Part shown: piece by piece, positions 1-49,658 of the stretch | How the letters are laid out: the number at the start of each line of letters is the position of its first letter | Position numbering within the stretch: the first letter of the stretch is position 1 | DNA from: Agaricus subrufescens | Taxonomy: Eukaryota; Basidiomycota; Agaricomycetes; Agaricales; Agaricaceae | Assembly (NCBI GenBank): GCA_029945375.1 | Contig: CM057057.1 | Coordinates: 1,054,001-1,118,000 of the forward strand | Direction of reading: 5' to 3' | DNA length: 64,000 nt | Notes under the pieces: generated by a model | The model's input: the letters and a program-made list of their open reading frames with translations, nothing else | Databases searched by the model: none | Told to the model about the DNA's origin: nothing | Program-made: the position numbers and the translations under genes

Positions 1-783
1 ATCACACTATCCACCGACGACGCTCCGAAATCCCAAGAGGACCTTCAAGACATGAAGGAAATCCCGTACCGTGAAGCTTTGGGTTCGCTGATGTGGCTTC
101 AAGTTGCCACACGCCCTGACTTATCATACGCTGTCAACTTACTGTCCAGGTTTGCCAACAACCCCGGACGCGCTCATTGGAATGCTTTAAAACACACTAT
201 CACTTACCTTAAAGGCACACTTGACTACGGCATCACGTATTATCGGGATTCCTCTCTCAAACCTTTTGGTTATGTTGATGCCGACTACGCTGGAGATATT
301 GATGGACGCCGTTCCACTGAAGGACATGTGTTCTTTGTTGCAGGAGGACCCGTCTCATGGGCGAGTAAGCGACAAGAGACTGTCGCTCTCTCTACTGTCG
401 AGGCCGAATATATGGCTTTTACTCGGGCTATACAACAAGCGGTCTGGCTCAGTAAATTCATGCGGGAAGTAGGATTGGAGCAAGCGAAGCCGATTAATAT
501 CTTTGCCGACAATAGCGGCGCTATCGCAAATACCCAGAACGATAAGAATCACCGCCGTACAAAACACATCGATGTCAAACACCATTTTGTGAAGGAAAAA
601 GTTGAAACGGGGGAGGTCATTTTCACCTATGTTCCATCTGCATGCAACATTGCCGATATCCTCACCAAACCGCTTCCGAGAGATGCCGTTCTTAAGTGTT
701 GTAGAGGTATGGGATTATTACCTATGGTGACGAAGCAGGGGGAGTGTTGGAATACTCCATCACCGACGGTAACAACTTCATGA
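1..783 (+). CDS. copia Pol C-terminus (RT end and RNase H), partial
   Basis: Frame 1 is open from base 1 to the TGA at 781-783, so this is the 3' end of a longer polyprotein; the methionine at 52 is internal. The sequence shows the copia motifs YREALGSLMWLQVATRPDL, then RNase H with VDADYAGD, SKRQETVALSTVEAEYMA and FADNSGAIA, followed by the end-of-pol motif NIADILTKPL. These correspond to the RNase H domain that removes the RNA template during reverse transcription. No frameshift or internal stop is seen in this part. The last codons run into the LTR, which starts at 745. Confidence 0.93.
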   Translation: MTLSTDDAPKSQEDLQDMKEIPYREALGSLMWLQVATRPDLSYAVNLLSRFANNPGRAHWNALKHTITYLKGTLDYGITYYRDSSLKPFGYVDADYAGDIDGRRSTEGHVFFVAGGPVSWASKRQETVALSTVEAEYMAFTRAIQQAVWLSKFMREVGLEQAKPINIFADNSGAIANTQNDKNHRRTKHIDVKHHFVKEKVETGEVIFTYVPSACNIADILTKPLPRDAVLKCCRGMGLLPMVTKQGECWNTPSPTVTTS

Positions 784-1058
784 TCTATTTTAAAACCTTC
801 ATATTTCACATATTGCCGTTTACTACTTTCCTCCTATCAAAGTACTGTACAGTTTTTATTCGTGGCTTACCGAGCACTTATATTCCCTGAACCTTAAAAC
901 TTACACCTCAGTGATAAACAAGTTATCGTTATCGCTGAGGTGAGTAGCATACGAGTTTCTAGTATATCCCAGTACTCATGTCACATTAGCTATTGTTCTT
1001 TAGGTATTTACTTATAGTGATAAACAAGTTATCGTTATCGCTGAGCTATTGTTCTTTA
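745..1058 (+). repeat. 3' LTR of copia element 0 (314 bp)
   Basis: The LTR starts with TGTTGG just after the polypurine tract and ends with TTCTTTA, by analogy with the ends fixed by target-site duplications in elements 1 and 2. It contains the palindrome CTGTACAG (845-852), a TATA-like TTATATT (879-885) and, 27 bp downstream of that, the hairpin/intron/duplicate block described separately. The following sequence (from 1059) is unrelated flank. No target-site duplication can be called because the 5' end is missing. Confidence 0.85.
906..1058 (+). other. LTR leader block: hairpin + intron-like segment + intron-less tandem copy (element 0)
   Basis: Hairpin A is 906-939 (CCTCAG...CTGAG). An intron-like segment follows at 940-989 (GTGAGTAG ... 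CATTAG, 50 nt), then B at 990-1003 (CTATTGTTCTTTAG) and a short spacer. A second hairpin copy A' is at 1016-1045. It joins directly to a second copy of B at 1046-1058, exactly as if 940-989 had been spliced out. The 5' splice-site G closes the base of the hairpin stem. The same arrangement occurs in the LTRs of elements 1 and 2 with different sequences. That it is a real spliced intron is inference. Confidence 0.7.
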
Positions 1059-13851: not shown

Positions 13852-14228
13852 TATTGGAGATACTTCGATATGCTAAGTCTCATTCTTTCTATTTTTATCT
13901 GTTATTCTATTTTCAACAATTCTCCATTCCACCGTACTGATTATCTTTCATCCTACTTTGAATTCTACCCCTAACACTATATAATTTCAACTTCAAATCT
14001 GTACAGTTTTTCTGGTGCCGGTTTCGCCGAATATTTATTCTTCAGCCACCGAAATTTTCACCTCAGTGGTCAACCTCGACTTCGTTGACACTGAGGTGAG
14101 TAGCTACATATGTTTACCGTTATCATACCTTTCCTGACTCGTAGTTAGATTTGTTGACTTCTTTAGGTAAATGAATATATAGTGGTCAACCTCGACTTTG
14201 TTGACACTGAGATTTGTTGACTTCTTTA
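13852..14228 (+). repeat. 5' LTR of copia element 1 (377 bp)
   Basis: Begins TATTGGAG and ends CTTCTTTA immediately before the primer binding site. Contains CTGTACAG (13999-14006), TATTTAT about 28 bp upstream of hairpin A, and the leader block at 14061-14228. The first base pair of the LTR is TA rather than the usual TG, in both copies. Confidence 0.93.
14061..14228 (+). other. LTR leader block: hairpin + intron-like segment + intron-less tandem copy (element 1)
   Basis: Hairpin A 14061-14095; intron-like segment 14096-14148 (GTGAGTAG ... GTTAG, 53 nt) with a consensus branch site CTGAC at 14134-14138, 10 nt before the AG; B 14149-14166; spacer 14167-14180. The second hairpin A' (14181-14211, one C/T difference from A) joins directly to a second B (14212-14228). 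The sequence present in copy 1 and absent from copy 2 is exactly the GT...AG segment. The same block is repeated in the 3' LTR. Confidence 0.75.
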
Positions 14229-14240
14229 GGTTATGGGCCC
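14229..14240 (+). promoter_or_regulatory. Primer binding site, initiator-Met tRNA anticodon arm
   Basis: GGTTATGGGCCC directly follows the LTR and is complementary to the GGGCCCATAACC of eukaryotic initiator-Met tRNA around its CAT anticodon. This is the half-tRNA priming known from Drosophila copia and relatives. Element 2 has the identical site. Confidence 0.85.
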
Positions 14241-14313
14241 CGGTCTGTAAAACTTAAATCAACAAAGCAAAACTTGAACAACACAAACCACTTACTTTAA
14301 CAAACATTTAACC

Positions 14314-16761
14314 ATGTCCAATACCGGTGGAAGCGCTCCTCCAATATTTGCTGACAACGCTAAATTCAACGGAATGAATTGGGTAACTTGGAAGGGCTTG
14401 ATACAAATCGCCACAGACCTGCACGGCGTGTCTGGATATCTTGACGGAACTATCCCAAACCCTTCCCAACCGCCGACTACGGGTCCTACAGCACCCACTA
14501 TCCCTACAGCCCCCCCGGCTCCTACAGCTCCTGCAACAACTACCGCAGCGACGACACCTGTCCAACCATCTGAAACTCCTTGGGAGTCCACGAACCCCGC
14601 TCCAGCTGAGTGGAAAGTCCGTAATGCATGGGCGATGGGTTTACTGATCTACAACACCACGGACCCCCTTGGACTGGGCATAAACATTCAAGGTACTGCA
14701 GCAGACGCATGGAAGTCTTACACTGATGGGTACCAAGTCGCATTGGAAGTCGCCCTTGCAAACGCCGAGCAAGACCTTCGCAACATGAGCTATACAGATG
14801 GTCAGGACTTCATTGACTTCATATCGAAACTTCGCACCAAATGGTCGAGCACTACTGCACTTGGGGCAAAAATAGATGATTCGGCATTCAGGATGATCAT
14901 CCTTAACGCACTTCCTCGATCCTGGGATTCAATTGTGGCCACCTTGTACACCACCCACACATCTCGCGATGCCATAAATCAACTCATGACCCATTGGGCC
15001 AGAATCAGTAGGGATCATGCCGTCAATCCACAAACTACCACCACTGCTCTTCGAGTTGAAGGGAATTCTGGCGGAGGTGGTGGGGGTGGTAACAGTCAGG
15101 TCCGCATCTGCAGTAATCCAAACTGCAATAGGCAAGGGCATACGATCGAGTCTTGTTATTGGCCTGGTGGAGGAAAAGCCGGGCAATTCCCTCCTGGCTT
15201 CGGGAAACGTAACAATAGGAGGAACTCGAACAGCAAACCCGCTACCGGGCAACAGACGACCACTAATGCTGTCAGCAAAAACACTGAACAGGTCTTCGCT
15301 TTAGCCACTTACATTCCCCCCAAAGTTGACACTCTTGAGGTACATTCCCAGCTGAAACCCCAATCGCCGTCCCAGTCTGACCATGCAAATCCCTCTACCA
15401 GAATTTCTAAACCAAATCTGGTATTTGGAATGGCCGATGTTAGAGACGTATGGGATGATATGGATGCAGAGCCTACCTTGTTGATACCTCATTGCCTCAA
15501 TGTTGATACTACTTCAAATGAAGCGTACATCCTTCTTGATTCTGGCACCAGTGACCACTGCTTCGTCGCTAGGCAATGCTTTTCCACATATGATGCCATT
15601 TCACCTCCTCGCACTGGGAATTCTGCGGGAAAGGACTCAACTTTCTTGATTGAGGGATCCGGGACTGCTGAATTCACCATGGTCATTGATGGTGTCTCGT
15701 CTAAGATCCTTATGTCCGACGCACTTCATACCCCACATCTACGGTCCAGCTTAATTTCAGTATCAAAACTGGTTAGCAAGGGACTCACAGTGAGCTTCGA
15801 GGGGAATACTGCGAAGGTTAGGAGATCGAATGGTGTTACAGTTCTCGTCGCCATAAAACAAAACGGACTCTATGTCATCCCAGCGAGCGTCGTGCAACGC
15901 ACTGAGGTCAACACATTCCAGTCAAAGCAAAAGGCTGTCGATTTTGAAATATGGCATCGAAGGTTGGGGCATGCGGGCACGGATACATTGAAGGGGATGA
16001 TTGGTGGCAAACTAGTGGACGGATTGGAAATCAGTGGCCCAGCGGAAATGAGAGCACTATGCGAAGACTGCATCTACGGTACTCACACGAGTCACCCATT
16101 CAAGGAATCCACCGCTAACGAAAAGGAAACCTTGGAACGCGTACACGTCAACATATGGGGGCCAGCCTCGACCCAATCCGCAGGCGGCGCGAAATATTTC
16201 ATGTTACTTGTGGATGGTGCCACATCGTATAGGACTGTATACTTCTTGTCTTCCACGTCTGTGGACGCTACACTTCAGGCTTTCATGGACTTTCATCGGC
16301 AGGCCGAACGGCAAACAGGAAAAAGGTTGAAATGGGTGTGGCTGGATATGGGGAAGGAATGGTGTAACTCAGCGTGGGACGAATACGTAAAGAAACACGG
16401 CATTGTGTTGGACTTCACAACCCCATACGCCCACCAACAAAATGGGAAGGCAGAGTGCTCGATGCGCACCTTACTCGACACCGCCTGCACCATGCTAGCC
16501 GACTCCAGATTGCCGCAGAAGTTCTGGGCAGATGCTGTCCAGACTGCGGTATATACCCGGAACTTCATCCCCAGTGCAAATGTCATCCCTTCTGAAGCCT
16601 GGTTTGGACGACGCCAGGATATCTCCCATCTGAGGCCATTCAGTTCTACAGCCTATGCTCATATCCCCCACGAAGTCAGCCCGTCAAAACTTGCTCCCCG
16701 CTCCGTTAAGCTTACCTTGATAGGGTACTTCGATCGATCCGGATACAAATTGCTGGACTGA
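14314..16761 (+). pseudogene. copia Gag-Pol, N-terminal part (Gag, protease, integrase), broken
   Basis: 815 codons from ATG 14314 to a TGA. In order: Gag, a zinc knuckle of spacing C-X4-C-X4-H-X4-C (CSNPNCNRQGHTIESC), protease active site LLDSGTSDHC, the HHCC region (WHRRLGHAG ... CEDCIYGTH) and the integrase core. The first core motif reads HVNIWGP where element 2 has HIDIWGP, so the first catalytic Asp is Asn; the glutamate in QQNGKAEC is present. The stop falls after KLLD, where element 2 continues KLLDRTSG. Pol resumes in another frame after the foldback insertion. Confidence 0.93.
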
Positions 16762-16785
16762 ACAACTGGCTCTGTTTCTAAATCT

Positions 16786-16905
16786 CATCAACAAAAGGTT
16801 TGGCTACTTGAAGCTACTTGAAGCTACTTGAGGGCTACTTGAAAATTCTCAAGTAGCCCTCAAGTAGCTTCAAGTAGCTTCAAGTAGCCAAACCTTTTGC
16901 TGATG
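16786..16905. repeat. Foldback (long inverted repeat) insertion inside pol
   Basis: Two 51-nt arms (16792-16842 and 16849-16899) are perfect reverse complements around the 6-nt loop AAATTC. With one mismatch they extend to 57 nt (16786 and 16905). Each arm consists of tandem variants of GCTACTTGAA. The insert sits between codons for S-K-S and R-D-V-I-F that are adjacent in element 2, so it is a secondary insertion. No clear target duplication was seen. It resembles a very small MITE or foldback element. Confidence 0.88.
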
Positions 16906-16915
16906 GCCTAGAGAT

Positions 16916-18855
16916 GTGATATTCGAAGAGACGTGCCCCCACTTTTCCACAGACCCCATTGTACGCTTTGACGCTGACGAGCTAACACCAAAATCCACTG
17001 CCATTGCCCCACGACCTAAGCCCTTCACTGATCTACACCCTACACCTCCTTCACCCATGACGTCCCCGCCTTTGCCCTCGACACCAGGCCCTGTAATCCT
17101 GCCGGTTCTCTCCAACCCAACGTCGAAGGGCACAACCCCCGATAGTGAAGAGGAAGTTTCTGACGCCATGATGCCCGGGGGAGACACACCAATTGCCATT
17201 CGCAAACCAAAGCGGGAAACTAGGTTATCTGCGAGGATGAGGGAGAGTCTGGAGTACTTAAGCAGGCCCACTGCAAGTATGGCTTCCATTGATGTGGACG
17301 ATTTGGCCGTTCCAGCGACCTATAAACAGGTGATGTTGCGTCCTGACCTTTGGTTGGAGCTGATGATGCAGGAACTTACAGTGATGAAGGAGAAGGATGT
17401 TTTTCGTCTCGTGGATCGGCCGTTGGGGAAGAATGTCGTGAAGTCAAAGTGGGTTTTTGCGAACAAGTATGACGATGAGGGAAGGATTGTGAAGAGGAAG
17501 GCGCACTTGGTTGCAAAAGGGTTTACTCAGATCCTAGGCGAGGACTATGACGAGACTTACACCTCTGTGGCACGTCTCAAATCTGTTCAGATGGTGTGCG
17601 CCATTGCGGCATCGCGCGGTCTCCAACTCTGGCAAGTTGACTTTGTCTCGGCCTTCCTCAATAGCGAAAACACTTTTGAGATCTACATGGAACAGCCGCC
17701 AGGTTTTGACGAGGGGGGAGACGACAAGGTGTGGCTACTCCTCAAGACCCTATATGGCATTATGCAGGGAGCCCACGACTGGGCGATTACACTCGAACGC
17801 ACCTATAACGGCCATGGATATTACACATCGAAAGCCGATTCGCAAATCCGATCCAAACTTATTGACAACAAATTTACCTTAACTTCCACATGGACGGATG
17901 ACATCCTAGGGGCGTCTTTGACTGAGGCTGGAGAGATGAAAGCTAAGGAGGAATTAAAGAGTAGCTATGAGATAAAAGACCTGGACGAGGCGAAGTACAT
18001 CTTGGAGATGAAGATTGAGAAGAGAAGTGACGGGAGCATCAAACTATCACAACGGGCCTACTCCGAGCGTGTTATGGAGCGATTCAATATGGGCGAGGCG
18101 AAACCCCGCAGCACACCACTCCCCGCTGGCATCACCCTTTCCTTGAAGGACTCGCCAGAAACAAATGAGGGGATACAGGACATGAAGGGAATACCATATC
18201 GCGAGGCTCTTGGCTCGTTGATGTGGCTCCAGGTAGCTACGTGTCCCGACTTGTCATACTCGGTGAATCTCCTCTCGCGATTTGCTCACAACCCAGGACG
18301 CGCACATTGGAACGCCCTAAAACACACACTCGCTTACGTTAAGGGGACCTTGAACTACGGTATTACCTACTATCAAAACTCCAATCTTCGCCCATTTGGA
18401 TACGTCGACGCCGACTACACAGGGGATGTTGACGCACGACGGTCAACTGAAGGCCATATCTTTTTCGTGGGGGAGGACCGGTATCTTGGGCGAGCAAATG
18501 GCAGGAAACCGTGGCATTGTCAACTGTCGAAGCCGAATATATGGCTTTCACCTGGGCTACCCAACAAGCCATATGGCTCAGCAAATTCCTTGATGAAGTC
18601 GGACTACCACAGGAAACGCCAATCAATGTATTTGGAGACAACACGGGTGCGATCTCTAACACACAGAATGATAAAAACCATTGGAGAACAAAGCATATTG
18701 ACGTTAAACACCACTTCATCAAGGAAAAGGCTCGGCTCGGATTGGTTACCTTCAACTATGTTCCATCTTCAGAAAACTTGGCCGACATACTCACAAAACC
18801 TTTGGCAAAGGAAGCGGTCTTAAGATGCTGTGGAGATATAGGGATACGAGGATGA
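16916..18855 (+). pseudogene. copia Pol, reverse transcriptase and RNase H, frameshifted
   Basis: Reverse transcriptase is readable from about 17290: KSKWVFANKYD, AKGFTQILGEDYDETYTSV, LWQVDFVSAFLNS, and the active-site box TSTWTDDILGAS, which has Trp-Thr-Asp-Asp where most copia RTs have Tyr-x-Asp-Asp. The frame ends at 18823, but RNase H shifts to the frame of 18511-18855 because of a one-base deletion near 18472 within FFVAGG. RNase H then reads STVEAEYMAF to NLADILTKPL. Non-functional. Confidence 0.93.
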
Positions 18856-18872: not shown

Positions 18873-19249
18873 TATTGGAGATACTTCGATATGCTAAGTC
18901 TCATTCTTTCTATTTTTATCCATTATTCTATTTTCAACGATTCTCCATTCCACCGTACTGATTATCTTTCATCCTACTTTGAATTCTACCCCTAACACTA
19001 TATAGTTTCAAATTCAAATCTGTACAGTTTTTCTGGTGCCGGTTTCGCCGAATATTTATTCTTCAGCCACCGAAATTTTCACCTCAGTGGTCAACCTCGA
19101 CTTCGTTGACACTGAGGTGAGTAGCTACATATGTTTACCGTTATCATACCTTTCCTGACTCGTAGTTAGATTTGTTGACTTCTTTAGGTAAATGAATATA
19201 TAGTGGTCAACCTCGACTTTGTTGACACTGAGATTTGTTGACTTCTTTA
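18873..19249 (+). repeat. 3' LTR of copia element 1 (377 bp)
   Basis: Preceded by the polypurine tract GAAGCAGGGGGAG (18860-18872) and followed by the AAAAG target duplication. Same length as the 5' LTR with about five substitutions, which indicates a moderately recent insertion. Confidence 0.93.
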
Positions 19250-21162
19250 AAAAGAATTTCACCCATCGATCTCTGTACGTGAGGCCTAGATAATTGGTAT
19301 TTTCACATGATGCACGAAATTATCCCAATTCATTTACATACCTGAGGTTGGCGTATCTTTACTCTTAAATTTTTCCCAAACGCCGAGCCACAATTTGGGT
19401 AAGCCTGCTTTCACATCTCCAGGGGATATACAAAAATTTTGGGACCAAATCGAGTTCAGCAAATAGTCACTGAATGAGGCATGATAGAAAAACGTAAGGT
19501 CAAAGATGTTATCAGATACATTGAGGAGGGAATAGCAGCCATTCAATGCAGTATAAACAGTGGCCAGTTCGAGACCAAGAATGACTGCAATGCCTGCTGG
19601 TGTCTCCAACACTTCGTTATCAGTTTCTTGGCCCGCAAGAAGAACTCCGAGAACACGTTTTGTAATTGGCCATACGTCATCTGGAATATCTTCCAGAATG
19701 CGTGAGTACAGGACATCCAGGGGGACGAATGGTTGACTGTTGGGTGCAGGCATAGCACCGTTGAGAGCAGATAAGACTTGATTGAGGCGCATTGGAGGAG
19801 CATGTCGAGGCTGCACGATGAACCGAAGTGTTGTCTCAGCAAAGATGAAAAGACCAGATGCGGCGGCGGCTAACTTGGAGATTTGCTCTTCGCTAGGCCA
19901 TTCCTTTGGTACCCTTCACCCGGACTCTTTCCGGATTCTCTCTAGGTCATTCCTTATGAAGAGCTCGACATCTCGAATGGATTCTTCGGAGTCTACGGGA
20001 ACGTCCCTTGACCAATACGACAGTATGACTTTCTCTTCGTTGAACATGTCACTGATGTGTGGTTCCGGGCGACTGGAGATAGTCCAAAGAAGGGGAACAT
20101 CGGGATGCTTGAGGACAAAATCAGCAACGAGACGGATGATCTGCTTTTGCGATTCAAGTCCATCGAGCTCATCCAGCCCATCCAGTAAAACACCCCACAG
20201 TTTCGAACCAGCCCCAATCTTCTTGTCAACAAACGGTTCCACAATGAACATTTTGAACTGTTCCTCAATCCCTTTGTTGACTAGCTCAGGGTCTCGATCA
20301 AGCTTCTCAGTGATGTAGGCGCAGTATTCCTCGATACGTACAGCAAGCTGGTAGCCAACTGTGAGGAAAAGATGTCGGGAGGAATTACGTTTGTTCGGAC
20401 GAGAAATAAAGACAGATGCTCCCAACTCCTGAGCTTCCGCAAGTTTGTCGGCGAGAGTCTGCATGATCACCGATTTCCCAACTCCTGCCAGACCAACTAT
20501 CCAGAGGAGCAATTCGTCCTTTCCTTCGTCGTAGAACCAAGTGATTATATCTCCATTGATTTCGACCCGAGTACCAGGGTGACATTTGGGAACGGGTTCG
20601 CGAGCAGACGAGTCGCGATCAGCACCGGGAATGATATTCTTGGAAAGGTGTTTCATGGCTTGATGGAATGTCAATCTGGAGTATATGCAGATACGCTGGT
20701 ATCTTACCTTTGCTTCGTTGATCGCTACTGATATTGATTGTCATCCTCGTCGAAGTGTCAACCATGGTACAATTGTTGACGGCAAAATTACTACAACGGC
20801 CGAAAAAGCCATCGCCTGATCCTACAACAAATCCTGAGACTGTACAGAATATCAGTACACTGAGCCAATATGCGATCAGAGCGTTTATGACCTTGACTAG
20901 TAGATGCATGTCTCATATCCAGTGCACGGTGGCTCGGTGACGGCTCACCCATGACAGCAGCAGCATCGAGAGCAGAAGAATGAAGAGTTGGAGAAGAGGT
21001 TTGGGCAATAGCTGCGAGACCTGACGCAGAAATGAGTGGACTATTTATTGAAGACCAATAATCAGTGTACTCACCGCCAGCCACAGCTCCATCCCTCTTC
21101 TTGAAGGAAGACGGATTCCACGCATGATTATTCAACTTTCGACGTTTTGGGTCTGGGTCCAT
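19250..21162 (-). pseudogene. NACHT gene 2, 5' half (N-terminus, NACHT, module 1)
   Basis: Start codon at 21160-21162, aligned with genes 3 and 4. An N-terminal exon and a short exon with the NNCTMVDTSTR region are followed by the NACHT exon with P-loop GLAGVGKSVI and Walker B LLDGLDELD. At 19916-19918 a TGA replaces the CGA (Arg) seen in genes 3 and 4 at the FPRRVP motif; the same frame then continues through WPSEEQIS, FVPLDVLYSRILEDIPDD and FYHASFSDYLL. The next exon (RDRWVKFFS region) is cut at 19250 by copia element 1 and resumes at 13851. Two independent lesions make this a pseudogene. Confidence 0.88.
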
Positions 21163-27448: not shown

Positions 27449-27796
27449 TGTTGTGAGTGATTCGACGCCTCACCTATTCTATTTCTATTCTCGGTCACAA
27501 CGACCCTTCACTTCTTTCCTCTTTTATCTTATTTCCAATATTTGTTTCTTTCACCCCTTTTATTTGGTAAAACTGTACAGTCGTCGTTGCCGAGCTGGCC
27601 GGGTATATAGGGCGGAACAAGCCACCCACACACCTCAGTGATCAACACGCTATACGTGTTCACTGAGGTGAGTAGTCTACAGTATCTGTATCAACGTCGT
27701 ACTTACTCTGGGGTAGTCTGTTACTTCATATTAGGTACGGCAATACACAGTGATCAACACGCTATACGTGTTCACTGAGTCTGTTACTTCATATTA
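27449..27796 (+). repeat. 5' LTR of copia element 2 (348 bp)
   Basis: Begins TGTTGTGAG and ends CATATTA. Contains CTGTACAG (27573-27580), a TATATAG box at 27604-27610 and, about 27 bp downstream, the leader block at 27633-27796. Confidence 0.95.
27633..27796 (+). other. LTR leader block: hairpin + intron-like segment + intron-less tandem copy (element 2)
   Basis: Hairpin A 27633-27667 (CCTCAGTGA ... TCACTGAG); intron-like segment 27668-27716 (GTGAGTAG ... GGGTAG, 49 nt); B 27717-27734; spacer; second hairpin A' 27748-27779 joined directly to a second B 27780-27796. Within the family A and A' agree, yet their sequence differs from elements 0 and 1 while stem pairing is kept. The copy in the 3' LTR is the same. 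Confidence 0.75.
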
Positions 27797-27808
27797 GGTT
27801 ATGGGCCC
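27797..27808 (+). promoter_or_regulatory. Primer binding site of copia element 2
   Basis: GGTTATGGGCCC, identical to the site in element 1 and complementary to the anticodon arm of initiator-Met tRNA. It starts directly after the LTR. Confidence 0.85.
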
Positions 27809-30800: not shown

Positions 30801-32302
30801 AAAAGAGAGTGTTTGAAGTTGTAGATCGACCAGTAGGAAAGAACGTAGTAGAGTCGAAGTGGGTGTACGCCCTGAAGTTTGATGAAGATGGAAACGTAGC
30901 TGCGAGAAAGGCGAGGCTGGTGGCGAAAGGCTTTACGCAGGTGCTGGGGGAAGACTATGATGAAACCTATGCATCGGTTGCGAGATTGGAATCGGTGAGG
31001 ATGGTTTGTGCGATAGCGGCTGCGAAGGGAATGAAACTTTGGCAAGTGGATTTCGTGTCCGCATTCCTAAACAGCGATAACCGATTTGACGTATACATGG
31101 AACCGCCCAAAGGCTTTGAGGAAGGGGAAGGAAAAGTGTGGAAACTCCTCAAAACCTTATACGGCACCATGCAGGGGGCACACGACTGGGCGCAAACACT
31201 CGACAAGACGTACCAATCTCATGGATATTACAAATCCAAGGCAGACTCGCAAGTACGCGCAAAAATCGATGGGAAGGAATTCACACTTACTTCCACATGG
31301 ACCGACGACGTTTTGGGTGCATCCACGACGGAGACAGGAGAAAGGAAAGCGAAGGGAGAGCTGGCCAGTAGTTATGAAGTGAAGGATCTAGGGGAAGCGA
31401 AACATATCCTAGGAATGAAAATCGATCGCTTCGACAACGGCGACATCCGCCTATCGCAGAAAGCATTTTGCGAACGAATTCTTGAACGCTTCAACATGAC
31501 GGACGCTAAGCCTCGCTCGACTCCACTACCCGCAGGCTTAAATCTCACTAAAAATGATTCCCCCCAGAACGAGTTTGAGCGTCAGGAAATGTCCAAAGTT
31601 CCCTACCGAGAAGCACTAGGAGCACTCATGTGGCTCCAAGTCGCTACCAGACCAGATCTCTCGTTCGCGGTAAACCTACTCTCTCGATTCGCAAATGACC
31701 CAGGTAGAGCACATTGGCAAGCCCTCAAGCACACACTCGAATACGTTAAAGGCACTATCGACTATGGAATCACGTATAGACGAGGTGGAAGCTTAAAGCC
31801 TGAGGGATATGTGGACGCCGATTACGCTGGGGATACAGACACCAGTAGATCGACCGAAGGCTACGTATTTTTCGTTGCAGGAGGAGCAGTCTCATGGGGA
31901 AGCAAAAGGCAAGAAACGGTGGCGGTATCTACCGTAGAAGCTGAATTTATGGCGTTCACTCGGGCGGCGCAACAGGCAATGTGGCTGGAGAAATTCCTCG
32001 ATGAAATCGGCTTAACCCAACCTGGTCCTACAATTATAAACGCGGACAATAACGGAGCTATCGCTAACACTAAAAACGACAAGAATCATCGTCGAACCAA
32101 ACACATCCGGGTCAAGTATCATTTTGTAAAGGAGAAGGTAGAGAACGGCGATATTACTTTTGTATACACTCCGTCAGCCGAGAATCTCGCTGATATCTTA
32201 ACGAAGCCGCTAGCACGAGACGCCGTGATTCGATGCTGTGACGGAATTGATATTCGGGGAGATTCTAAAGTTGAGGACGCCGAACCAGGGGAAGTGTTGT
32301 GA
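27878..32302 (+). pseudogene. copia Gag-Pol polyprotein with one in-frame stop
   Basis: One frame from ATG 27878 to TGA 32300-32302 (eight bases into the 3' LTR), about 1474 codons, broken only by TGA at 28307-28309. Element 1 reads ANAEQDLRNM where this reads NAE-stop-DLREC. Order: Gag with FNGTNWVAWSGLIGIAADL; zinc knuckle CANPNCRRTGHVIADC (C-X4-C-X4-H-X4-C); protease LLDSGATDHC; integrase HRRLAHTG, CEDCIYGKH, HIDIWGP and QQNGVAERSM with catalytic residues intact; RT with LWQVDFVSAFLNS and TSTWTDDVLGAS; RNase H ending NLADILTKPLARD. Either a fresh nonsense mutation or a readthrough stop; I favour mutation. The enzymes otherwise look functional. Confidence 0.93.
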
Positions 32303-32642
32303 GTGATTCGACGCCTCACCTATTCTATTTCTATTCTCGGTCACAACGACCCTTCACTTCTTTCCTCTTTTATCTTATTTCCAATATTTGTTTCTTTCAC
32401 CCCTTTTATTTGGTAAAACTGTACAGTCGTCGTTGCCGAGCTGGCCGGGTATATAGGGCGGAACAAGCCACCCACACACCTCAGTGATCAACACGCTATA
32501 CGTGTTCACTGAGGTGAGTAGTCTACAGTATCTGTATCAACGTCGTACTTACTCTGGGGTAGTCTGTTACTTCATATTAGGTACGGCAATACACAGTGAT
32601 CAACACGCTATACGTGTTCACTGAGTCTGTTACTTCATATTA
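32295..32642 (+). repeat. 3' LTR of copia element 2 (348 bp)
   Basis: Follows a purine-rich tract (32282-32294) and appears base-for-base the same as the 5' LTR. It is followed by GAGAG. Confidence 0.95.
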
Positions 32643-33334: not shown

Positions 33335-36300
33335 TTATGCTTCATCAGGGTATGGAATCACATAAAATGCTCGACCTGTTTCAAAATCCCATTCATTGAC
33401 AATTTTCGAGTCATCTTCAGTATATTCATATTCAAAAGCTGCGAACCGCCCCCATGCTGGTCCACCAATCAGAGCTTGAAGTTGTGGTCTGCGCTGCTGA
33501 AACATCCGAAGATTTGATATGTGGTACTTAAGGTCTTTCTCATCTTGGATCTAGAATAGAATACATATCATAACACATCGGTATACTACACACCCTAAAA
33601 AAATTTAACCTTACATAATCAACCCACCAAACCCCCCCCTCGCGGTCTGGTCCACCATTTTCTACTGTATCGTAGTGTTCAAGGTGATCAAGTTTGAGCT
33701 CTTGAAGCGCGATTTGATGAAAGAGATTTCTAGAGCTGAGCTCCATCTGATATGTCTACAAACCAAATTAGACTCCGATGATACAGCGTAAATTAGGCAC
33801 TTACATTCCAGAGATTAAACAACGTCACGAAAAATTCACTTTTGGCATGAAGAATTTGAGATACTGTAAAATAATCTAATTGACCAAGTATGTCAAAGAG
33901 TAGACCCTGAATTTGCGGCGATTCAAGCTCATCAGGCCCATATTTACCAACTTCAGCTAATGCGTTGTTAACATCATAAGAGAGCCACTCGGAGACGAGC
34001 TCCTCATCAAAGTCATGACTTGATAGGCTGAAATCAGAATAACGCTGTGAAAAATATGTAGCCCACTGAGATTTATCTAGTTTATTAAATTCAGGACAAG
34101 TGGCTATATATGATACAAAAACTCACCAGATGGACCACGACACCACCTCTTGTAGCCTAACCAAAAATTATATAGCACCTGAAGTGCAGTGATTAAAGAC
34201 TGCCTTGTTGGGGTAGAGAATTTCTTGGAGCGGGTAGAGTCTACCAGATATCCATAAAACGAAGCATGAAAGGTGATAGGCTCCGAAGGGTCCCCAGGAG
34301 GTGTCAGAAGCATCGGATAGCAACCATTGAGTGCAGCATCAACCACATTCAATTTGGTGCCAAAGATAACAGAGATGCCTGTGGGATATTGAAGACTGAT
34401 GAAGGAAACTGAAGATATTCTATTATTGAGTAAAACATCCAGCACTTGTTTTGTGGTCGGCCACATGTCAGGAGAGATGGAATCAAGGATATGGGTGTAT
34501 AACGCATCAACATAAATGAAGGGATGATCATCAGACGGATCAACTTCGTCAATGAGAGCTAGCAGCTGGTCGAGACGTGTGATGGGGTTGCCAGCAGCAT
34601 AGGGAGAGTCGTCAATGAATCGGACGGCTATACTGCCAAATACGAAGTGATGAGACACAGCACCTGCTAGTTTGCGAAATTGCTCCCTGCTCGGCCAAAT
34701 CAGTGGTACCGTTTGTGGATATTTTGCGCGGATTTTGTCAAAATTGTGGTTGAGGAAGTGTTCCGCATCATGGTAAAAGTTGGAGGGTGTAATAGGGATG
34801 ATAAAGTATTGGCGCCAAAAGTAGTCTGATTCAGGTTCGTAGTCTGATTCAGCTTCATCAAGCTGAAGCCTGAACAAAAGGCAACCGGTTTCAAAGGTTC
34901 CACAAGATAAGACAGGAAGCCGTGGATGGTACGATTGAAGGTGTGATATATCACGTAAAATTTGATAACAACCCTAAAAAGATATATTAATACAGTGGAT
35001 ACATCAGCGATTTGTTTCTTACTTGAGGACTTAGGCCACCAAAAGAGTTGTCATTATCATAATGCAAAACACAAGCTAGATCTATTTCATCATGAGAAAA
35101 TTGGAACTGTTCCAACCTCATTGCTGTAATGATCCCTCTAGACACAAGCGTATCACGGTAAGCCTACACCAAAAGTTAGCAAAGGCAAGGCATCTAAAAT
35201 AGTAGAAAATCATTTTACCTCCCACATGTCAAACAACCAAGGCCATAACTTACTTGTTTCTTCACCTGAGAATATGTCGCATGCGGTACCATATTCCACT
35301 TGGCTCAGTAGATTGAAAAACTGATCCTGATCCTCTTTTGGTGAAAACGTCATTCCATTAGGATCGTGCTTTTCAACCAAAATGGTAACTAGTGCTTCGT
35401 GAATGTATGATATAAGTGATTCGTGGAAGTCTTCAATACGTGACTCATGGGATTCTTCACTAAGGGAGTAAAGGATTAGGATGGTATTGTAAATAAAGTT
35501 TGGTGCCGGGCTTTTCACTCACTTCTGTTCATGGAATATCGTTGAAAAATATTTGACCCATCGGTCTTTATACGTGAGGCCTAAATAATTGGTATTTTTA
35601 TATGATGTACGAAATTATTCCAACCCATTTACATACCCGAGGTTGGCGGATGATTAATCTTAAATTTCTCCCAAACACCGAGACACGACTTGAGCAAGTC
35701 TTCTTCCACATCTCCAAGGGATATATAAAATTTTTGAGACCGAGTCGGGTCCAGCAAATAGTCACCGAATGAGGCATGATAAAACAGCATTTGTTGAAAG
35801 ATGGCATCAGGAGCATCAGACACATTGACGAGGGAATAGCAACCATTGAGTGCAGTATAAACAATGGTCAGTTCGAGACCAAGAATGATTGCAATACCAG
35901 CTGGTGTCCTCAGCTCGTCGTTATAGTCTTTTGTGGCCGCCAGAAGAAATCTGAGAATACGCTTTGTAATCGGCCATATCTCATTTGGAATGTCTTCCAG
36001 AATGCGTGAGTACAGAGCATCCAGGTGAGCGAATAGTTGACTACTAGATGAGGACATAGGACTGCTGAGAGGAGATAAGACTTGATTGAGGCGTGTGGGA
36101 GGAGCATATCGACGATCCGCGATGAACCTAAGTGCCGTCTCAGCAACGATAAAAAGGCCAGATGCGGCGGCGGCTAATTTCGAGATTTGCTCTTCGCTAG
36201 GCCATTCCTTTGGTACCCTTCGCGGAAACTCTCTCCGTATTCTGTCTAGGTCATTCCTTATGAAAAGCTCGACGTCTTGGCAGGATTTCCAGGAGTTTGC

Positions 36301-37466
36301 GGGAACGTCCATGCGCCAACAGGATGGTATGACGTCCTCTTCTCTGAACGTGTCAGTGATGTGTGATTCTGGGCGACTCGAAATAGCCCAAAGAAGGGGA
36401 ACGTCAGGATGCTTGCGGACAAAATCAGCAACGAGACGAATGATCTGCTGTTGCGGTTCAAGTTCATTGAGCTCGTCGAGCCCATCCAGTAAAACACCCC
36501 ACGGTTTCGAACCAGCTCCAATCTTCTTATCAACAAACGGTTCCACAATGAACGTTTTGAACTGGACCTCAATCCCTTTGTTGACTAGCTCGGGGTCTCG
36601 ATCAAGCTTCTCAATGATGTAGGCGCAGTATTCCTCGATACGTACAGCAAGCTGGTAGCCAACTGTGAGGAAGAGATGTCGGGAGGAGTTACGTTTGTTC
36701 GGACGAGAAATAAAGACAGATGCTCCCAACTCCTGAGCTTCCGCAAGTTTGTCGGCGAGAGTCTGCATGATCGCCGATTTCCCGACCCCCGCCGGACCAA
36801 CTATCCAGAGGAGCAATTCGTCCTTTGCTTTATCGTAGAACCAAGTAATTATACGTTCATTGATTTCGATCCGAGTACCAGGGTGACATTTGGGAACGGG
36901 TTCGCGAGCAGACGAGTCGCGATCAGCACCGGGGATGATATTCCCGGAAAGGTGTTTCATAGCTTGAAGACACGTCAACCTGGAGCACATGCAGATACGC
37001 TGGTACCTTACCTTTGCTTCGTTGATCACTACTGATATTGATCGTCGTCCTCGTCGAAGTGTCAACCATGGTACAATTGTTGACGGCAAAATTACTACTA
37101 TGGCTGAACAAGCCATCGCCTGATCCTACAACAAATCCTGAGACTGTACAGAATATCAGTACACTGAGCCAATATGCGATCAGAGCGTTTATGACCTTGA
37201 CTAGTAGATGCATGTCCCATATCCAGTGCACGGTGGCTCGGTGACGGCTCACCCATGACAGCAGCAGCAGCGAGAGCAGAGGAATGAAGAGTTGGAGAAG
37301 AGGTTTGTGCAATAACTGAGAGACCTGATGCAGAAATGAGCGGACTGTTTATTGAAGACCAATAATCAGCGTACTCACCGCCAGCCACAGCATCATCCCT
37401 CTTCTTGGAGGAAAACGGCTTGCGAATGAGAGCCTTCAACTTTTCACGTTTTGATCCTGGGTCCAT
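33335..37466 (-). CDS. NACHT NTPase with duplicated post-NACHT module (gene 3)
   Basis: Multi-exon gene, about ten short introns, apparently intact. Proposed start 37466 (MDPGSKREKLK). After a low-complexity N-terminal exon and the NNCTMVDTSTR exon comes the NACHT exon (about 35637-36970) with P-loop GPAGVGKSAI, Walker B LLDGLDELNE, SSRPESHITD, WPSEEQIS and FYHASFGDYLLDPTRS. Further exons carry KHDPNGMTF, then a second module (34104-34877) with WPSREQFRKLAGAVSHHF, FIYVDALYTHILD, WPTTKQVLDVLL and FHASFYGYL but no Walker motifs. The last exon has QLQALIGG, AFEYEYTEDD and PYPDEA, stop 33335-33337. Such fungal NLR-like STAND NTPases are proposed self/non-self sensors; the ligand is unknown. Splice sites were placed by eye. 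Confidence 0.82.
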
Positions 37467-45584: not shown

Positions 45585-48500
45585 TTATGCTTCATCAGGG
45601 TATGGAATCACATAAAATGCTCGACCCCTCTCAAACTCCTCTTCTTTGACAACTTTTGAGTCGTCTTCAGTATATTCGTATTCAAAAGCTGCGAACCGCC
45701 CCCCTGCCATTCCACCAATCAGAACTTGAAGTTGTGGTCTGCGCTGCTGAAACATCCGAAGATTTGTTATGTGGCCCTCAAGCTCTCCGGATTCAATCTA
45801 GGATCGAATATCATAACGCATCAGTATACGACACACCCTGAAAAAAAAAAAATCTTACAGAACTCCACCAAAGCCTTTTCCGATTTGAAATAACATGCGT
45901 TTGACCATGTTGTACTGTATTGTAGTGTTCAAGGTGATCGAGTCTGAGCTCTTGAAACTCCATCTCATGAAAGAGACCTCTAGAGCTCAGCTCCATCTGA
46001 TATTTCTACAAACCAAATTAGAGACTGAGAATACAGCATAAATTCGGTTCTTACATTCCAGAGAGTGAGTACTGTCACGAAAAATTCACTTTCGGTATCA
46101 AGAACTTTAGATACCGTAAAATAATCTAATTGACCAAGTACGTCAAAGAATAGACCCTGGGTCTGCGGTGATTCAAGTCCCGCGGGCCCATATTTACCAA
46201 TTTCAGCTAATGCTTTGTAAACATCCCAAGAGAGACACCGGGAGAGACTATCAAGCTCATGACTTGATGTGCTGAAATAAGAATGACACTGTGAAAGATA
46301 TGTAGCCCACTGGGATTTATCTATTTATTAAAATCAGGACAAGTGGCAATATATGATAATAAAAACTCACCAGATGAGCCATGACACCACCTCTTGTAGC
46401 CTAACCAAAAACTACATAACACCTCAAGTACCGTGAGTAAGGAGTCCTTTGTTGAGATAGAGAATTTCTTGGAGCGGGTAGAGTCTATCAGATAATCATA
46501 AAATGAAGCATGAAATATAATAGATTTCATAGAGTCCCCAGGAGGTGTCAGAACCATTGGATAGCAACCATTGAATGCAGCATGAACCACATCCAATTTG
46601 GCGCCAAAAGTAACAGACAAGACCCCAGGAGATTGAAGACTGGAGAAGGAAGATATTTTTGTGGTGGGTAAAACATCCAGTATTTGTTTTGTTGTATGCC
46701 ACATATCAGGAGAGACGGAATCAAGGATATGAGTGTATAAAGCATCAACATAAATGAAGGGATGACCATCAGATAGATCAACTTCATCAATGAGTGCTAT
46801 TAGCTGGTCAAGACGTGTGATGGGGTTGCCAGCAGCATAGGGATCTTCAATAAATCGGATGGCTATACTGGCAAATACAAAGTGGTGAGACACAGCACCT
46901 GCCAGTTTGAGTAATTGCTCCCTGCTAGGCCAAGTCGGTGGTACCATGTGTGGATATTTTGTGCGGATTGTGTTAAAATTGTTGCTAAGGAGATATTCTG
47001 CATCACGGTAAAACGTGGAATTGGGAATGGGGATAACAAAATATTCCTGACGAAGGCTGTCTGATTCAGGTGCATCACGCCAATGCCTGAACACAAGGCA
47101 ACCAGTTTCAGAGCTTCCACAAGATAAGACAGGAAGCTGTGGATGATATGATTGAAGACGTGTTATCTCAAAGAGAGTTGTGTCAAAATCATGCTAAAAT
47201 ATGGGTCAACATAGTTAATATAACAAAGGTTCATTTCTTACTTCGTAGTGAAACCATGTACTATCCCATGATCTGTCAACATAAATAATGTTGCTACCGG
47301 CTGGAGATGCTCCAGCATACGAAAATTGGAATTGTTCCAATCTCATTGCTGAAATGTTTCCTCTAGACACAAGTACATCACAATAAGCCTGCACCAAGAG
47401 TCAGCAAAGGGAATGAATTTAAAATAGTAGGAAATTCTTTTACCTCCCACATGTCAAACAACCAAGGCCATAGTTTCTGCGTTCGAGAGAATATGACACA
47501 TCCGGTACCATATTCCAACTGGCTCAGTTGAATGAAACACTGATCCTGATCCTCTTTTGATGAAAATGTCTTTCCATTAGGATCGTGCTTTTCAACCAAA
47601 GTGGTAACTAGTGTTCCATAGATGTATTTTATAAGCGATTCGCAGAAGTCGTGACTAAGTGAGTAGATGATTAGGATGGTATTGCAAATAAAGTTAAATG
47701 CTAGACTTTTCACTCACTTTCCATGAGGGATGATCGTTAAAAAGAATTTTTCCCAACGGTCTTCATACTTGAGGCCTAAACAATTGACATTTTCAAATGG
47801 TGCACGAAAATATTCCAACGCATTTACATACCTGACGTTGGGGGATCATTAGCCTTGAATCTTTCCCAAACATCGACACATGACTTGAGCAAGTCTTCTT
47901 CCACATCTCCAAGAGATATAGAAAAACTCTGGGACCGACTCAGGTCCACCAAATAGTCACCGAATGAAGCATGATAAAACTGCGTTGGTTCAAAGATGGC
48001 ATCAGGAGCATTAGACACATTGAGCAGGGAATAGCAGCCATCAAGTGCGGTATAAACGGTGGTGAGTTCGAGACCAAGAATGACTGCAATCGCCGCCAGT
48101 GTCCTCAATCCGTATTCCTCGCCTTTTTGGGCCGCCAGAAGAGCTCCAAGGACACGCTTTGTAATTGGCCATATGTCATCTGGAATATCTTCGAGAACGC
48201 GTGAGTACAGAACATCCAGGCGGGCGAATGGTTGACTACTGGATGGGGGCATAGGGCCACTGAGGGCAGATAAGACTTGGTTGAGGCGTGTGGTAGGGTT
48301 AGCATATCGTGGATCCTCAATGAACCGAAGTGATGTCTCAGCAAAGATAAAAAGTCCAGATGCGGCGGCGGCTAAGTTCGAAATTTGCTCTTCGCTAGGC
48401 CATTCATTTGGTACCCTTCGCGGAAACTCAGTCCGAATTCTTTCCAGGTCATCCCTTACGAAGAGCTCGACGTCTCGGATGGATTGCTCGGAGTCGACGG

Positions 48501-49658
48501 GAACGTGCTTTGACCAGTATGACAGTATGACCTGCCCTTCGTTGAGCGTGTCAGTGATGTGTGGTTCCGGGCGACTGGAGATAGCCCAAAGAAGGGGAAC
48601 GTCGGGATGCTTGAGGACAAAATCAGCAACGAGACGGATGATCTGCTTTTGTGATCGATGTTCATCGAGCTCGTCGAGCCCATCCAGTAAAACACCCCGC
48701 GGTTTCAAACCAGCTCCAATCTTCTTGTTGACAAATGGTTCCACGATAAACGTTTTGAACTGTTCCTCAATCCCTTTGTTGACTAGCTCGGGGTCTCTAG
48801 CAAGCTTCTCGGTGATATAGGTATAGTATTCCTCGATATGTACAGCGAGCTGGTAGCCAACTGTGAGGAAGAGATGTCGGGAGGAATTACGTCCGTTCGG
48901 GCGAGAAATAAAGACGGATGCTCCCAGCTGGTGAGCTTCCGCAAGTTTGTCCGCAAGAGTCTGGATGATCGCCGATTTCCCGACCCCCGCTGGACCAAAT
49001 ACCCAGATGAACAATTTCTCCTTTTCTTCGTCGTAGAACCAAGTAATTATATGTTCGTTGATTTCGACCCGAGTCCCTGGGTGACATTGGGGGACGGGTG
49101 AGCGAGCAGACGAGTCACGGGCGGCATCGCGAATGATATGTTTGGAAAGGTGTTTCATTGCTTGATGAAATGTCAACCTGGAGTACATGCAGACACGCTG
49201 GCATCTTACCTCTGCTTCGTTGATCGCTATTAGTATTGACCATCATATTTCCCCGATTATCTACCATGATAGGATTGTTCAAGGAAAATTGGCTACTATG
49301 GCTGAAAAAGTTCGAGCCCGAGCCTGCAACAATTTCCGGGACTATACAAGATATCAGTACACTAGGCCAAGGCATGATAAGAGTGTTCATGACCTTGACT
49401 GGTGGATTCATGTACAACGATCTTGGGTGTGCTCATAGTCGGCGACGGCTCACCCACGGCAGCGACAGCAGAGAAGGGAGCAGTTGGAGAAGTGGTCCGC
49501 GCACCAGGTGAAGCATCTGAATGAGGAATGAGGGGACTGTTTACTGAACACCACGTATCAGCACACTCACCGTCAGACGCAGCCTCGTCCTTCTTCTTGG
49601 AGGAGAACGGCGTGCGAATGATAGCCATAAACCTTTTGCGTTTCGATCCCGGGGCCAT
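45585..49658 (-). CDS. NACHT NTPase with duplicated post-NACHT module (gene 4)
   Basis: Multi-exon, apparently intact. Start 49658 (MAPGSKRKRF). An exon carries FFSHSSQFSLNNPIMVDNRG; an intron of about 50 nt (GTAAGATG ... TCAAG) joins it in phase to AMKHLSKHI. NACHT exon 47832 to about 49158: P-loop GPAGVGKSAI, Walker B LLDGLDELDE, WPSEEQISNLAAAASGLF, FYHASFGDYLVDLSRS. Then short exons (47718-47775; about 47443-47650 with KHDPNGKTF) and an exon containing LQSYHPQLPVLSCG. The second module (46321-47094) has WPSREQLLKLAGAVSHHF and FHASFYDYLIDSTRS. The final exon has QLQVLIGG and PYPDEA, stop 45585-45587. Probable role as for gene 3. Nearest copy to the intact GH78 and GATA genes. Confidence 0.82.

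Follow-up and report, generated by a model that had tools for sequence, protein, structure and literature searches.

Copia LTRs of Agaricus subrufescens with one or two putative introns closed by an exon copy, probably renewed through strand transfer of a spliced leader

Introduction

When an RNA is reverse transcribed, any intron in it is normally expected to be missing from the new copy, and such loss is the classic proof that Ty moves via RNA. The LTRs found in a 64,000-nucleotide stretch of the Agaricus subrufescens genome (C1:1054001-1118000), called the window below, raise the question of how an intron might nevertheless stay. Each contains a leader with the order A-I-B-s-A'-B', in which A'-B' is what remains of A-I-B after removal of I, and I has the appearance of an intron. 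With good confidence, we read these as copia LTRs that carry one or two introns after the transcription start, the last ending in an exon copy that is renewed via strand transfer of the spliced leader. The wider reading, which we regard as likely on balance, is that of a self-renewing intron persisting through a spliced RNA genome, where the exon copy would be the 3' R and be rewritten in each cycle, in at least four copia groups that either converged on the design or retain an old trait with turned-over sequences.

Results

Repeated leaders in the LTRs of the window

The A-I-B-s-A'-B' leader layout is real and is general in this genome. Within the window it is present in all five LTRs, the 3' LTRs of elements 1 and 2 included (Table 1). 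The segments I lie exactly where the initial annotation had placed them, and A-I-B minus I equals A'-B' in each case. The two copies of A had been said to differ at one position at most; they are identical in elements 0 and 2 and differ by a single base, in both LTRs, in element 1, and B equals B' in elements 0, 1, and 2. The start of A needed adjustment, since the preceding CCTC belongs to U3 and A proper begins after it. Two further claims gave way on comparison. The three LTRs had been called unrelated, but they are families of one group: elements 0, 1, and 2 have the donor GAG/GTGAGT and the LTR end type (TTA) in common, and the PBS is identical in elements 1 and 2, whose 5' LTRs are visible. 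A branch site had been reported for element 1 alone, but a branch-like motif stands at the equal place in all three (CTCAT, CTGAC, and CTTAC).

Table 1. Features of elements 0, 1, and 2 in the window, with predicted transcript parts.
Feature	Position	Strand	Remarks
Element 0 3' LTR	745..1058	+	TGTTGG...TTTA; window holds only the 3' part of element 0
Element 0 U3 arm	904..909	+	CACCTC, able to pair with donor GAG/GTG
Element 0 A	910..939	+	predicted exon 1, from predicted +1
Element 0 I	940..989	+	predicted intron 1 (GTGAGT...CTCAT...AG), 50 nt
Element 0 B	990..1002	+	predicted micro-exon; last base would be G at 1003
Element 0 s	1003..1015	+	spacer GGTATTTACTTAT, donor-like GTR start
Element 0 A'	1016..1045	+	identical copy of A from predicted +1
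Element 0 B'	1046..1058	+	copy of B closing the LTR
Element 1 5' LTR	13852..14228	+	98.7% to its 3' LTR
Element 1 A	14065..14095	+
Element 1 I	14096..14148	+	CTGAC begins 15 nt before end of I
Element 1 B	14149..14165	+
Element 1 putative intron 2	14167..14229	+	GTAAAT...A'-B'...TTTAG
Element 1 A'	14181..14211	+	one difference from A in both LTRs
Element 1 B'	14212..14228	+
Element 1 PBS	14229..14242	+	GGTTATGGGCCCCG, complementary to an internal segment of a tRNA-Met(CAT) gene in this genome
Element 1 gag and pol	14314..18823	+	two ORFs: copia-type gag, weak integrase match, RVT_2
Element 1 3' LTR	18873..19249	+	like layout (A 19086-19116, I 19117-19169)
Element 2 5' LTR	27449..27796	+
Element 2 A	27637..27667	+
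Element 2 I	27668..27716	+	CTTAC branch-like motif
Element 2 B	27717..27733	+
Element 2 A'	27749..27779	+
Element 2 B'	27780..27796	+	then PBS at 27797
Element 2 3' LTR	32295..32642	+	like layout (A 32483-32513)

The elements belong to Ty1/copia by their domains, with Retrotran_gag_2, gag_pre-integrs, Pol_BBD, SH3_retrovirus, and RVT_2 above cut-off and the integrase core rve, at 26 bits, under its cut-off of 32.6, and also by a near-identical LTR pair and a tRNA PBS. Their nearest named pol relatives are from Agaricus bisporus and Leucocoprinus birnbaumii; a search with the pol protein found nothing related in viral_contigs, and of 42 candidate stretches in genome_contigs none was confirmed. 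The PBS GGTTATGGGCCCCG matches 14 nt inside tRNA-Met(CAT) genes, called as tRNA at two of the four loci searched. Half-tRNA priming is the mode of copia, as in Drosophila copia.

The window also contains one unit in four diverged copies, spaced by about 12-17.5 kb, around positions 2126-2590, 19634-20098, 35938-36402, and 48301-48600, and copia elements sit between some of them. A minus-strand ORF at 35629-37116, in the region of this unit, encodes NACHT and nephrocystin-3 N-terminal domains.

Survey of the window's group in the genome

The pattern CCTCAGYGN{8,38}TGAGGTGAG matches 83 places in the 44.65 Mb genome, at least one of them a palindrome read on the reverse strand, and the reversed control matches none; on this count a chance repeat was rejected. 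A pattern match in viral_contigs (L143) is without a PBS match and was itself read as chance. Selection by PBS alone, from 30 of the 31 listed exact TTAGGTTATGGGCCCC sites, gave 30 5' LTRs, of which 27 have the full A-I-B-s-A'-B' leader and three the short A-B form. The 27 full leaders represent 21 distinct combinations of A plus I. All fetched LTRs, those of other groups included, are part of 225 PBS places (at most two mismatches) in one genome.

We parsed 69 distinct LTRs, leaving aside L101 and a reverse reading of L036, and carried 67 of them forward, L022 and L106 being dropped; with L027 also left out, they form 28 families. A strict parse, in which similar copies and an AG before B were demanded, retained 63 LTRs in 26 families, with the loss of L017, L022, L027, L036, L106, and L108.

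Segment I has the signals of a spliceosomal intron

Comparison supports the reading of segment I as a spliceosomal intron. It has a GT donor, a branch site, a terminal AG, and a fungal intron length, all conserved amid sequence drift; the standard applied here is these general intron criteria. In 28 family representatives, I is 46-54 nt long and always ends in TAG or CAG (28/28). The GTGAG donor is built into the search pattern, and therefore is not independent evidence in LTRs found by that pattern. The motif YTNAY begins 14-15 nt from the end of I in 26 of 26 families, compared to a mean of 1.81 and a maximum of 8 families in 500 shuffled sets, and it occurs at no other position from 10 to 21 nt from that end. 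All 27 full leaders chosen by PBS alone have the branch motif at 14-15 nt together with the AG. The cores of I are slightly more alike between families than shuffled cores are (0.585 versus 0.549), and 60 of 325 pairs lie over the shuffled 95th percentile, where about 16 are expected.

Two element pairs, L013/L014 and L055/L054, show no difference in I between their 5' and 3' LTRs but six in A, mostly at CpG by eye. Decay may be faster in A than in I.

A' changes together with A

Concerted evolution of A and A' had been proposed from the three elements of the window, and the comparison of families bears it out. Differences in A between families are mirrored in A' in 1035 of 1056 cases when each family is represented by its best member (the one with fewest A/A' and B/B' differences), in 938 of 1070 cases with the worst, and in 92-94% with random choices. 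Among the 27 PBS-picked full leaders, A equals A' in 16 and B equals B' in 26; the 11 with unequal A and A' differ by one or two bases (eight leaders) or by three or four (three leaders). The corresponding counts for the 63 strictly parsed LTRs, from a parse that itself demands similar copies, are 38 and 60.

For 24 element pairs, assigned by hand from coordinates, divergence between A and A' is 28/1488 (1.9%), while that between 5' and 3' LTRs is 16/744 (2.2%) for A and 12/744 (1.6%) for A'. Removal of three near-duplicate pairs (L077/L105, L079/L109, and L055/L054) changes these values to 23/1304 (1.8%), 9/652 (1.4%), and 10/652 (1.5%), respectively. U3 divergence of the pairs was left out because the stretch compared extends beyond the LTR start. 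Since A and A' have diverged about as much as the 5' and 3' copies have, the two were alike at insertion in most elements. A/A' differences present in both LTRs are found in L005/L006, in L078/L107, and at one site in L025/L026, and L033/L032 has three difference sites in each LTR.

Two ways of reading a direction of copying were rejected. Many A/A' differences resemble post-insertion CpG decay by eye, so direction was not read from them; and the 5' LTR L131 (C2:3855570; with L148/L149), considered as a case of A' lagging behind A, has a 3' LTR in which A equals A'. The A' of this 5' LTR differs at two sites from its A and from both 3' LTR copies, and matches the A' of the related L146, perhaps through exchange between elements.

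The match between A and A' begins at the same A(G) in all 28 representatives; the bases that precede it are CCTC for A and variable for A'. A TATA-like box starts 29-35 nt upstream of A in 24 of the 28 (hand count), which places the edge about at the expected start site.

A leader of this kind could also be an ordinary tandem repeat, in which A-B was duplicated once, an intron or insert entered the first copy, and conversion or unequal exchange homogenizes the two, with splicing having no part in the copying. Exchange predicts two loss forms, and both occur (A-B at four loci, A-I-B at one; see below). Homogenization would, however, need two separate conversion tracts, one of about 31 bp and the other of 13-19 bp, and would have to leave I and s untouched, and it is further at odds with the sharp edge at the predicted start, with the branch-site constraint, and with the recurrence of the layout with other sequences. 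We judge it quite improbable.

Putative exon copies in other copia groups

A further 26 5' LTRs were taken from the PBS list, their leaders unseen at the time of choice, and classified by reading. The initial annotation had suggested a survey of whether every copia family has the A-I-B-A'-B' layout. Nearly all PBS-picked LTRs of the window's group, here called type 1, do; in the further set, the design is present in 14 and absent from 12. The 14 consist of nine LTRs of type 2, three of type 3, one of type 4, and one of type 1, so that the design recurs in four groups, which may share ancestry.

In type 2 (nine loci), an A of 22 nt is followed by a putative intron of 50-53 nt that ends in A', with A equal to A' in eight of nine; a pattern for this type matches 218 places, and its control none. 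By eye, the TATA-like box of type 2 is some 50 nt upstream of A, and transcription in this type may therefore begin elsewhere than at A. In type 4 (L140, L144, and L145), A and A' are each 28 nt long and show no difference in any of the three. Types 2 and 4 follow the simplest rule: the putative intron closes with a copy of exon 1. Type 3 is seen in L126 (decayed), L131, and L132, and then in L146 and L147. Its order is A, I, B (12 nt), s, A', B', a 7-nt tail, and PBS, and its donor is GTATGT. The A of type 3 is 25 nt long in L132 and 30 in L147, and the length of A' matches in each.

Copia LTRs with the same PBS but no exon copy include L115, L116, L118, L120, L121, L125, L129, L130, L135, L136, and L139. 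Several such LTRs have a donor-like GTAAGT or GTGAGT in longer leaders, as judged by eye, and splicing out of the LTR is possible there.

The segment s-A'-B' in type 1

As first proposed, the mechanism consisted of splicing of I and copying of the spliced leader onto an unspliced 3' LTR. Comparison supports both steps, but the scheme is incomplete, because s-A'-B' would have to go as well. Were I alone spliced, the RNA would read A-B-s-A'-B'-PBS, and LTRs with three copies or without I would be expected from its strong-stop cDNA. No third copy was found in 99 leaders scanned (at overlapping loci), and no LTR with loss of I only was found among pattern matches, in a pattern search alone. Copying in type 1 would work only if s-A'-B' is removed or skipped.

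Several features suggest that s-A'-B' is a second, weak intron. In 66 of the 67 parsed LTRs, the bases after B are GGTA or GGTG, a count made without forcing s to start in this way; the lone T is probably that of L027, a misparsed LTR. The putative intron 2 is 55-69 nt long, and the end of B' is pyrimidine-rich with a TTAG-like acceptor. Its donor has T at +6 in 24 of 28 families but G at +5 in only one of 28, and only 20 of 26 have a strict YTNAY at 10-45 nt from the end of this segment. The second-intron reading is favoured by types 2 and 4, whose single putative intron has the exon copy as its 3' end. Splicing in type 1 from A directly to B' alone was rejected, as it would not keep B like B'.

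The segment might instead be skipped: I would be spliced, type 1 would have no intron 2, and reverse transcriptase would jump from B' to B on A-B-s-A'-B', leaving a strong-stop of A-B. Reverse transcriptase is known to lose direct repeats, the GGT after B is the first three bases of the PBS, and the weak signals of intron 2 also speak for such a jump. The base after GGT, however, is almost without exception A or G, which fits a donor, and not the T of the PBS; the lack of any third copy means that skipping would have to be nearly perfect; and types 2 and 4 require no skipping at all. We consider the jump rather unlikely and keep the second intron as the preferred reading.

Short A-B-PBS LTRs, which lack I, a B copy, s, and A', occur at four loci (L112, L113, L114, and L090), and at L112 and L113 both LTRs are short. 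Along some 250 bp, the L112 LTR resembles the intron-bearing L062 group at 94-95%. Such LTRs would yield the same mature leader as spliced type 1. The sole A-I-B form, L106, lies directly before a PBS-like site and has no A'-B'. The short forms and L106 could both come from plain repeat recombination, in the case of the short forms by exchange between A and A'.

A U3 arm able to pair with the donor

In 26 of the 27 PBS-picked leaders, the hexamer preceding A (usually CACCTC) is able to pair with GAG/GTG, with G-U allowed. Pairing is possible in 60 of 63 parsed LTRs and 24 of 26 families as well, though CCTC is part of the search pattern for these; the corresponding place before A' pairs with the donor in none of 26. 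Mean predicted folding energy in type 1 is -21.5 kcal/mol with the arm and -7.9 without it. Predicted openness of the donor is 0.12 in the 3' context and 0.25 in the predicted 5' RNA (Wilcoxon p=0.0008), with the order reversed in six of 26 families, and the true arm differs from a shuffled arm at p=0.016 (one shuffle each). Eight leaders of types 2-4 were folded as well. Addition of 30 nt of U3 took them from -2.9 to -4.5 kcal/mol to -17.8 to -29.6 (no shuffles), with donor access reduced in four, about the same in L122, L124, and L133, and partly reduced in L140. An RNA that begins at A would be without the arm, while the 3' LTR transcript has it, and so the U3 bases upstream of A may shut the donor in the 3' LTR transcript only.

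The introns might instead be real but serve expression only, by aiding export or translation or by taking out a poly(A) site near the 5' end, with an unspliced genome and with A and A' kept alike as matching 5' and 3' R. Foamy virus offers a precedent, in that its donor in R, blocked at the 3' LTR, controls polyadenylation, according to the excerpted text of its description (PMC3694450). Selection for matching would hardly carry the many family-specific differences, those in B included, without a copying step, nor would it readily explain the change of length in type 3 (25 versus 30 nt). We find this explanation highly doubtful.

Discussion

Proposed renewal of the exon copy

The model that we prefer, a proposal drawn from comparison and predicted folding, places one spliceosomal intron or two shortly after the start, and the last of them ends with a copy of all earlier exons. 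Transcription would begin at A. In the 5' copy the donor would be free, and the leader would be spliced to A(-B)-PBS, with a second splice in type 1. The U3 bases preceding A would be present in the transcript of the 3' LTR and would there pair with the donor and the last bases of A, which would keep the intron in; polyadenylation in the 3' LTR may be permitted in the manner of foamy virus, a mode of control in which U1 bound near the 5' end prevents polyadenylation there. Half of tRNA-iMet would prime strong-stop cDNA on the spliced leader, and this cDNA would run off at the cap. The strong-stop A(-B) would then anneal to A'(-B') near the predicted 3' end of the genomic RNA, A'(-B') acting as R, and synthesis would continue through s, B, I, A, and U3. 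Annealing at A'(-B') followed by onward copying would mean that every cycle rewrites A'(-B') from A(-B) while the intron is kept. Annealing to A instead would lose the intron at once and leave an A-B-PBS LTR.

If the model is true, a last intron that ends in an exon copy protects an intron for as long as that copy is the target of strand transfer, and a retroelement can use splicing for expression or export and not lose its intron. It would also be concerted evolution of a new kind, acting within an LTR, and it would imply that start, R, and U5 are misread when an LTR of this kind is taken as one uninterrupted transcript.

Comparison with known systems

The elements have the copia gag, gag_pre-integrase, and RVT_2 domains of Ty1/copia and, like it, a PBS for an inner stretch of tRNA-Met(CAT). 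They differ in having putative introns within the LTR plus a terminal exon copy, and in type-1 LTR ends in TA (mostly TTA), not CA. In engineered split-intron retroviral vectors, strand transfer places a splice signal in the LTR. The present elements would likewise rely on strand transfer, but the vectors are artificial and have no renewed exon copy. Among titles and the beginnings of abstracts in the literature on LTR introns, no intron inside an LTR kept by an exon copy was described, though one may be described elsewhere.

In foamy virus, the major splice donor lies in R and is reported to be closed at the 3' LTR by sequence preceding +1, as probed by SHAPE on fragments from +1 and from -13 (PMC3694450, in excerpt). 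The present elements similarly have a donor near the start and upstream bases that can change the fold, here by sequence and folding alone; that excerpt describes neither an intron contained entirely in the LTR nor a copy of an exon (PMC3694450). Ogre and EVADE, plant LTR elements, contain a spliceosomal intron whose alternative splicing makes subgenomic RNAs, according to an excerpted account (PMC12786077). They share with the present elements, where it is putative, an intron in an LTR element, and their description there includes no LTR copy of a spliced leader (PMC12786077). The same excerpt recounts the 1985 experiment in which a Ty element with an inserted intron gave a new copy that had lost it (PMC12786077). 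Both cases have an intron, here a putative one, in RNA that undergoes reverse transcription, but, unlike that of Ty, the layout described here would keep the intron.
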